From the IMG/VR virus record IMGVR_UViG_3300025326_000200, positions 1 to 24,119 of that record: a stretch of DNA of 24,119 nt. One strand, given 5' to 3'. Under the pieces are notes generated by a model. The model did not search any database, was not told the origin of the DNA, and saw only the letters and a list, made by a program, of their open reading frames with translations. This DNA comes from a virus. The first letter of the stretch is position 1. The number at the start of each line of letters is the position of its first letter. A program made the position numbers and the translations under genes. Shown piece by piece: positions 10,860-12,448 of this stretch.

Positions 10860-11116
10860 GCTTCCACTCCGAGGTCCGGATAGCAATCCCGGATGATCTC
10901 CTGGGCCATATCGGCGCCTTCCAACGATCCTTCCCACATCGCGCGGAGCACTGTGAACGCGCCGAATTTCCTACCGTGGACCCATGCATAGATACGGTGC
11001 AAATCATTGTCGTCGTTGATGCCAATGAGCAGCCTGCCAGCTCGCACATAGGTGAGGCCGCGCCGCATGATCGCGGCCGCGACCGCGCCGGGGAAGCGAC
11101 TTGCTGGGCTGATCAC
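10856..11116 (-). CDS. Hypothetical protein (GTG start)
   Basis: The 86-residue protein begins at a GTG whose GTGA overlaps the ParB-like stop; an internal ATG at residue 17 is an alternative. It has an alpha/beta look: a basic N-terminal helix, then TYVRAGRLLIGINDDND and a C-terminal helix with MAQEIIRDCYPDLG. No domain is recognised. Conservation of the junction overlaps on both sides supports it as a real gene. Confidence 0.6.
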   Translation of the reverse strand: MISPASRFPGAVAAAIMRRGLTYVRAGRLLIGINDDNDLHRIYAWVHGRKFGAFTVLRAMWEGSLEGADMAQEIIRDCYPDLGVEA

Positions 11117-11601
11117 TGCCGCACGCCCAATCGTTTCTGGCCCTGCACCGCTGCCGGCAGCTCGAGCAGGCGGACCTTGTTACGCACGGCCGAAGCCGAC
11201 AAATGGAACAGCTCACCGATCTCCTCGGACGTCTTCCCGAATTGGTCCCGGTAGGTCGCCATCGCCCGGGCTTCCTCGATCGGCGTCAGATCCTTCCGCT
11301 CGAGGTTCTCCCGGATCGCCAGCTCGAACATCTCCTGATCCGAAAGCTCGCGGACGTCGACGGGCATCTGCTCAAAGTCGCGATGGCCATCTGTGACGAG
11401 CTTCCGATAAGCGGCCAGCCTCGTGTGGCCGAACGCCAGCTGCACTCCCTTGCCGTCCGTGCGCCGACCTACAGGCACCTGGAGCAGCCCGACCTTCAGA
11501 ATGGAGCCGGCGACTTCTGCGACTTGCTCCGAATCCTCCCGCTCCCGAGTCTGGTAGGGATTGGGTAACAGCTGATCGATCTTCAGGGTGGCGACGGTCA
11601 T
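11113..11601 (-). CDS. ParB-like nuclease/partition-family protein, short form
   Basis: From the ATG at 11601 (GGGAGG eight bases ahead, ATGA overlap with the upstream gene) the protein is 162 residues. Residues 1-105 match the ParB N-terminal domain: IDQLLPNPYQTRE, FGHTRLAAYR in place of the classical GERR-containing box, and IRENLERKDLTPIEEARA (97-113). Residues ~120-147 form the helix-turn-helix (KTSEEIGELFHLSASAVRNKVRLLEL). The protein stops soon after, so the C-terminal dimerisation domain of chromosomal ParB is missing. No ParA gene is visible. It may act as a transcription or replication regulator rather than in partition; that is inference. Confidence 0.82.
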   Translation of the reverse strand: MTVATLKIDQLLPNPYQTREREDSEQVAEVAGSILKVGLLQVPVGRRTDGKGVQLAFGHTRLAAYRKLVTDGHRDFEQMPVDVRELSDQEMFELAIRENLERKDLTPIEEARAMATYRDQFGKTSEEIGELFHLSASAVRNKVRLLELPAAVQGQKRLGVRQ

Positions 11602-12227
11602 TGCGAGCCTCCCGCGGGTATGCGTACAGAGTGTGCGCGGCAATCATCAGCCACTTTCGTGTCCCGGTTCCCTTCCGCAATCAGGCCGCCGCACTTACTG
11701 CAGCGGAAGTAGCCGTCGGGAATGACGACGTCGCCGATTCCTACGGGTCGGATTCGGGGTGGCGATTTCCGACCCGAACCGTTATTAACCGAGGACTCCA
11801 TCTCCTGTGAGGGAGTCTTAGGTTCCTTAAGGATCGGGTCGGATTCCGACCCGTCGGATTCCGACCCGTCGTGAATTCCGACTCCGCCAGATGTGGCCGG
11901 TCCAGATTGCCCCTTGTCAGCTGTTGGCGTTGGGGTCGGAGATTCCGACTCCCATCCCAAACGGCGGTAGTGATCGCCTAATCGGTATCGATTGGTCCCC
12001 CGCGGGCCGGCTCCGCGCTCCAGTTGGAGCTCGTGCTCGGTCTCCGCCTTCTTGAGGAGCTCGATGACGGTCGACCGGTCCGCCCGCGCTTTGCGAGCTA
12101 GCGTGTCAATCGAGGGCCACGCCTCACCGTAGTCGTTTATGAAGTCGGCGACAACAATCATCAGGACCAGGGCCGTCGCCCTTTGTTTTGAGTGCTCGAG
12201 GACAGTGACAATGGCCTTGATGCTCAT
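11598..12227 (-). CDS. Lambda O-like HTH replication-initiator candidate
   Basis: The ATG at 12227 is chosen because it forms an ATGA overlap with the preceding stop; the protein is then 209 residues. Residues ~5-95 are a winged-helix domain (KQRATALVLMIVVADFINDYGEAWPSIDTLARKARADRSTVIELLKKAE) like those at the N-termini of phage replication initiators. Residues 93-165 are low complexity, with a GSESDGSESD repeat. A C-terminal four-ligand zinc motif follows (Cys176, Cys179, Cys196, His199). The DNA encoding the linker holds an iteron-like repeat cluster (11745-11951), as the lambda origin lies inside gene O. It may therefore bind its own gene to start replication. No helicase gene is seen beside it. 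Confidence 0.68.
   Translation of the reverse strand: MSIKAIVTVLEHSKQRATALVLMIVVADFINDYGEAWPSIDTLARKARADRSTVIELLKKAETEHELQLERGAGPRGTNRYRLGDHYRRLGWESESPTPTPTADKGQSGPATSGGVGIHDGSESDGSESDPILKEPKTPSQEMESSVNNGSGRKSPPRIRPVGIGDVVIPDGYFRCSKCGGLIAEGNRDTKVADDCRAHSVRIPAGGSQ
11745..11951. repeat. Iteron-like cluster, candidate replication origin
   Basis: The 6-mer GTCGGA or its complement TCCGAC occurs nine times in about 205 bases, at 11747, 11768, 11838, 11845, 11853, 11860, 11877, 11935 and 11944. Two copies form a perfect 17-base inverted repeat, GGGTCGGATTCCGACCC, at 11836-11852. The 15-base unit GTCGGATTCCGACCC repeats in tandem at 11838-11852 and 11853-11867. An AT-richer stretch with GTTATTAACC and CCTTAAGG (11781-11832) lies between the groups. 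The motif is read in different codon frames in different copies, which points to selection on the DNA. Confidence 0.5.
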
Positions 12228-12448
12228 GCGTCGATGCAGCCTCCACATGGATATGCGCACCCGATCGCGGTGAAGCCTTCCCAGATCAGCCAGTCGAGAT
12301 CCTTCGCCAGGTCGGGCCGGATGACCAGAGAACGCGTGCCGCGCCGGATGCGGATGCGAAAGCCGTTCTCGTCCTCGAGGTACCTTGAGGGGATTTCCAT
12401 AATCCCGACGGCCTCGCTCACACTGAGGGGCTGAAAGCTCACAGCCAT
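12224..12448 (-). CDS. Small hypothetical protein
   Basis: The ATG at 12448 gives 74 residues; a reading extending upstream to 12595 is rejected because a distinct small membrane-protein gene occupies that stretch in another frame. The protein has a beta-hairpin-like region (YLEDENGFRIRIRRGTRSLVIRP) and a helical DLAKDLDWLIWEGF, then ends CAYPCGGCIDA with three closely spaced Cys. No family is recognised. It overlaps the upstream gene by ten bases and the HTH gene by four (ATGA). Confidence 0.55.
   Translation of the reverse strand: MAVSFQPLSVSEAVGIMEIPSRYLEDENGFRIRIRRGTRSLVIRPDLAKDLDWLIWEGFTAIGCAYPCGGCIDA

Follow-up and report, generated by a model that had tools for sequence, protein, structure and literature searches.

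The window, by which we mean the whole 24,119-nucleotide stretch of viral DNA analyzed here, contains on its minus strand a gene for an O-like replication initiator (11598-12227). The encoded protein has 209 amino acids when read from the ATG at 12227, and an alternative GTG start is possible at 12260. It matches the PHROGs family phrog_391, "replication initiation O-like" (E=1e-14), together with a PHROGs family named replication initiation protein, and it carries an HTH_36 DNA-binding domain encoded at 12042-12176 on the minus strand (Pfam E=4.5e-06, residues 29-73 of a 220-amino acid reading). The description given in a first-pass annotation of the sequence, that of an O-like initiator with a helix-turn-helix at its N terminus, is therefore borne out. 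Comparison with solved structures gave no convincing match, and a protein search of genome contigs returned no close relative. The C-terminal region (11598-11730, residues about 167-209) contains a Cys-x2-Cys motif, RCSKCGG, that resembles a small zinc ribbon; Cys-rich tails also end the initiators of the Arthrobacter phages Kels and Toulouse. No helicase or helicase-loader gene was recognized with Pfam and PHROGs among the proteins scanned near the initiator on this fragmentary record, and the phage may use the helicase of its host; a neighboring gene of this kind is usual in lambda, though an origin of this type need not have one.

The linker-coding part of this gene contains nine copies of the 6-mer GTCGGA/TCCGAC, beginning at 11747, 11768, 11838, 11845, 11853, 11860, 11877, 11935, and 11944. 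They are organized into dyads, only two of which are perfect within the window. The perfect 13-bp iteron GTCGGATTCCGAC occurs at 11838-11850 and 11853-11865, the first copy being nested in a palindrome that had been described as 17 bases long and does exist, at 11835-11853, with a length of 19. An imperfect dyad, GTCGTGAATTCCGAC, lies at 11868-11882, and a 15-bp dyad, GTCGGAGATTCCGAC, equivalent to the iteron with two extra central bases, lies at 11935-11949. The distal group is made up of two half-sites, at 11761-11773 (with TCCGAC at 11768-11773) and at 11747-11759 (with GTCGGA at 11747-11752). Two adjacent units encode GSESD-GSESD, giving the tandem 15-base repeat that had been reported, here placed at 11842-11856 and 11857-11871. 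Between the iteron groups is a moderately AT-richer stretch (11774-11834), a candidate unwinding element. The AT-richer patch of the first-pass annotation is weakly enriched in the window, with an AT content of 0.45-0.47 versus about 0.40 for the gene.

The concentration of the 6-mer in this region exceeds chance, as had been claimed. The whole 24 kb window contains 19 copies, compared with 20.7 expected from shuffles, and nine of these fall at 11747-11949 versus only 10 across the other 23.9 kb; that is, less than 1% of the window holds nearly half of its copies, and the motif is not equally dense elsewhere. Nine copies per 205 bases is the top density of any 6-mer in the window, and the highest count reached by any 6-mer over the same length in 60 dinucleotide-preserving shuffles was 5. 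As a further control, the gene was recoded for the same protein, either by shuffling its own codons synonymously or by redrawing them from genome codon usage, with 2000 trials each. Nine copies were obtained in none of the 4000 recoded genes, the maxima being 7 (own codons) and 6 (genome usage). The copies occupy all three codon phases and both strands, which, with the recoding result, excludes a purely protein-level repeat and upholds the earlier argument that protein constraint does not explain them. Cumulative GC skew, which had been suggested as a check, has no clear inflection at the array, a result that is uninformative because the record is just a 24 kb fragment.

A closely related contig, IMGVR_UViG_3300025326_000194 (L003), starts inside the same initiator gene and permits the conservation of the DNA itself to be assessed. 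Over the iteron block the two sequences agree at every one of its 19 codons, compared with 118 of the 143 codons for conserved residues in the neighboring ParB-like gene, a modest difference (Fisher P about 0.03). In its distal group, L003 has dyads in place of the half-sites of the window: a fuller dyad, GTCGGAAATCCCGAC, corresponds to the half-site at 11761-11773, and the half-site at 11747-11759 is kept beside a further dyad, GTCGGAATCGCCGAC. The DNA between the groups is more AT-rich in L003, reaching 0.62. The ParB-like gene lies directly downstream of the initiator gene, on the minus strand at 11113-11601, and encodes ParB_N and HTH_ParB domains with the C terminus missing. About 2 kb present in L003 is absent from the window at 11137-11150, which removes the C-terminal part of ParB; positions 1-784 and 2796-3571 of L003 match adjoining window DNA and overlap there by 14 bases. 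Either an assembly fault or a deletion at short direct repeats could account for the gap.

Arrays of the same dyad are also found outside this phage. GTDB species genomes were scanned for two copies of GTCGGAWTCCGAC within 30 nt, a search of DNA only with no protein criterion, and 21 loci were recovered. Six lie inside helix-turn-helix initiator-type genes, five in Streptomyces (L018, L019, L026, L029, and L031) and one in Gordonia (L035). The PHROGs replication-initiation families matched by the window protein are also hit by the proteins of L019 and L026; L018 and L031 are grouped with L019 by near-identity, the HTH_36 match of L029 is weak, and L035 has no family match, its helix-turn-helix being judged by eye. 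Exact copies of the dyad are confined to the initiator gene both in the 9.7 Mb genome of L019 (4 of 4) and in the 4.0 Mb genome of L035 (3 of 3). In L019, L039, L040, L041, L056, and L062, the next gene after the initiator encodes a DnaB-type helicase. The dyads in these Streptomyces and Gordonia genes fall in reading frames other than those used in the window, and from one plasmid to another the 13-mer encodes SDSD, RIPT, RNPT, or VGIRP. The first-pass annotation had asked whether relatives conserve the DNA or merely the protein linker; in L003 and in the Streptomyces plasmids it is the repeats that are kept, in the latter even where the amino acids they encode vary among SDSD, RIPT, and RNPT. 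The other 15 loci were set aside as unrelated: nine are from Azospirillum, and the rest are low-complexity genes (Frankia, Nonomuraea) and singletons. The Azospirillum genomes (L017, L020, L021, L022, L025, L027, L032, L033, and L034) contain an inverted pair, GGTCGGAATCCGACC...GGTCGGATTCCGACC, apparently at one chromosomal place and perhaps a transcription terminator.

Plasmids of Streptomyces, Kitasatospora, and Thermobifida encode homologues of the L019 protein, and these, with a few more from Streptomyces genomes, allow the recognition helix to be compared with the dyad in the same gene. Members with the helix KMTAAK, KITAAK, or KESAAK have four to six dyads of the GTCGGAWTCCGAC type, a few copies being one base off. 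Streptomyces relatives with altered recognition helices have different dyads, such as GGCGGATTCCGCC and TGCAGATTCTGCA. Within the family as a whole, the two members with KERTAR have GGCGGATTCCGCC or GGCAGATTCCGCC, LRAAQ or LRTAQS accompanies TGCAGAWTCTGCA, and LRSARD or LRTAQA accompanies TGC/GGC-GAAATCT forms. On a tree of the N-terminal domain built without the helix, dyad type requires five changes among these related sequences. This covariation supports recognition of the dyads by the initiator but falls short of proof, as helix and iterons lie within about 200 bases of each other in a single gene and cassette recombination could also hold the pair together. A rule tying the dyad to one helix residue was weighed and abandoned, since the proteins of the window, S. 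humidus, and Gordonia combine one and the same dyad with unlike helices; because the window helix differs from those of the Streptomyces proteins that share its dyad, no simple residue rule applies to the 13-mer.

Paired dyads of two other types were sought in 2.9 million viral contigs, and the genes containing them were compared with an O-like HMM trained on five other proteins. Pairs of TGCAGAWTCTGCA occur in 24 stretches, of which 19 lie in O-like genes: 16 are inside matches to the HMM, and three (L071, L077, and L089) match PHROGs initiation families. The remainder comprise L072, in a helix-turn-helix-looking gene without a match, and four stretches that are in tail-type genes or have no containing gene. 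Pairs of GTCAGAWTCTGAC, a composite of GTC arms and an AGAWTCT core, gave 40 stretches, and all but one are in O-like genes, 38 by HMM match and L118 as the same gene truncated where its contig stops. The same HMM matched none of 1009 ORFs elsewhere in those 40 loci. The DNA scan is itself blind to protein, including that of the phiNP-like group, but the HMM is not blind to that group, as phiNP, which is similar to several of the GTCAGAWTCTGAC matches, was among the five training proteins. One enterobacterial prophage type contributes many of the 39 as near-copies, and by eye at least five distinct gene types are present; the count therefore overstates independence. A scrambled dyad of equal composition gave no stretches in the viral contigs. 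Pairs of GGCGGAWTCCGCC, the pFP3 type, also gave no match there, a sign that some dyad types are uncommon in phages.

The arrangement has a precedent in phage lambda. Lambdoid origins, to which O dimers bind, lie in the middle of the O gene and comprise an AT-rich region as well as iterons; in related phages, O gains residues through additional iterons (PMC7466680). The lambda record has four annotated iterons at 39034-39118, mid-gene in O, followed by an A/T-rich stretch. Like lambda ori, the window locus is a helix-turn-helix initiator gene with repeated dyads in its own linker-coding part. It differs in iteron sequence, the lambda units being 18 bp (for example, ATCCCTCAAAACGAGGGA at 39034), and in its protein, which belongs to the HTH_36/phrog_391 branch, is shorter than O, has a Cys-containing tail, and has no identified P-like partner. 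The O-like genes of the enterobacterial phage phiNP and the Vibrio phage gene Va_PF430-3_p42 have an HTH domain 35-37% identical to that of the window protein and GTC-N7-GAC linker repeats (GTCAAAATCTGAC and GTCAAATTCCGAC) resembling the window dyads in form, whereas the dyad core and the C-terminal regions differ. The Streptomyces Rep genes likewise contain GTCGGAWTCCGAC arrays within a helix-turn-helix initiator gene, but they are of plasmid rather than phage origin, often have a DnaB-like helicase gene next to them, and encode an N-terminal domain only distantly similar to that of the window protein. Streptomyces linear-plasmid replication genes with a DnaB-like helicase, the pSLA2-type Rep1/Rep2, were reportedly described by Chang, Kim and Cohen in 1996, and the Rep and DnaB-like gene sets found here may be of this type.

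In light of these observations, we consider it highly probable that the repeats are an iteron array constituting the replication origin of the phage, located where its own O-like initiator gene encodes the linker. Origin function is inferred from homology to lambda. In the proposed course of initiation, the N-terminal helix-turn-helix of the initiator would bind each 13-bp dyad, probably as a dimer, and several bound dimers would assemble at 11747-11949. The assembled dimers would then melt the AT-richer stretch that separates the two iteron groups and recruit the helicase machinery.

Three other readings of the repeats merit consideration. The array could be a parS-like centromere for the downstream ParB-like protein, serving partition or regulation rather than initiation. 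The ParB_N and HTH_ParB domains of the neighbor would suit such a role, and KorB operators are also odd 13-bp palindromes. However, a 38 kb contig (L007/G001) with a ParB 67% identical to that of the window has no array, only a single match with two mismatches, which argues against ParB as the binder. Furthermore, the Streptomyces plasmid and Gordonia initiator genes hold arrays with no ParB recognized among the neighboring genes shown, and in the plasmid family it is with the initiator helix that the dyad covaries; a ParA partner was not seen among the window proteins scanned with Pfam and PHROGs. We regard the centromere reading as very unlikely.

Much the same low probability attaches to a regulatory role, in which the initiator or some other regulator would repress transcription of the operon by binding the repeats as operators and the origin would lie elsewhere. 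Iteron-binding initiators often regulate their own genes, but the array lies mid-gene, far from the start, and beside an AT-richer stretch, as in lambda ori. Operator use may coexist with an origin role. The least credible reading, to which we give almost no weight, is that the repeats are a by-product of a Ser/Glu/Asp low-complexity linker expanded by slippage and have no function as DNA. The adjacent GSESD-GSESD units are what slippage might leave behind, but it does not account for copies in three codon phases and on both strands, for the failure of recoding to yield nine, for the varied residues that plasmids read from the same 13-mer, or for L003 codons of the iteron block that are kept rather than freely varying.

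As an origin within an O-like initiator gene, the window locus belongs to a class that is already known. What may be new is that phages and Streptomyces plasmids have a dyad format in common and that this format can serve as a signature in searches; the motif was not found by name in the relevant literature searched, as open-access text. Tentatively, and with doubt slightly outweighing confidence, we propose that a single modular iteron format is common to the HTH_36/O-like initiators found in phages and on Streptomyces linear plasmids: two outer triplets flank a GAWTC-centered core, the resulting 13-bp dyad lies in the initiator's own linker in any reading frame, and the recognition helix sets the dyad type. 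If this is true, origins could be found by DNA pattern alone and a recognition code could be worked out. A likely origin and its initiator can now be assigned for an uncultured phage, and in unannotated sequence a pair of 13-bp dyads marks O-like initiator genes with high specificity. The natural helix/iteron variant pairs allow direct testing of the rules of DNA recognition in this initiator family.

Some related arrangements were also encountered. The viral contigs L013 and L014 each have five copies of the dyad outside any recognized initiator gene, in five 33-bp tandem units (L013:2072-2216 and L014:4079-4223), each with GGTCGGAWTCCGACC; in L014, a helix-turn-helix gene and a DnaB-like helicase gene lie downstream. 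These units may form an origin whose iterons lie outside the initiator gene. In another phage, whose ParB is 51% identical to that of the window, the linker of the upstream gene holds the palindromes TCCGATATTATCGGA and TCCGGAAAATCCGGA (L005:4300-4450), each followed by CCTAAT, and this gene may be a further case of the design, built on a different dyad.
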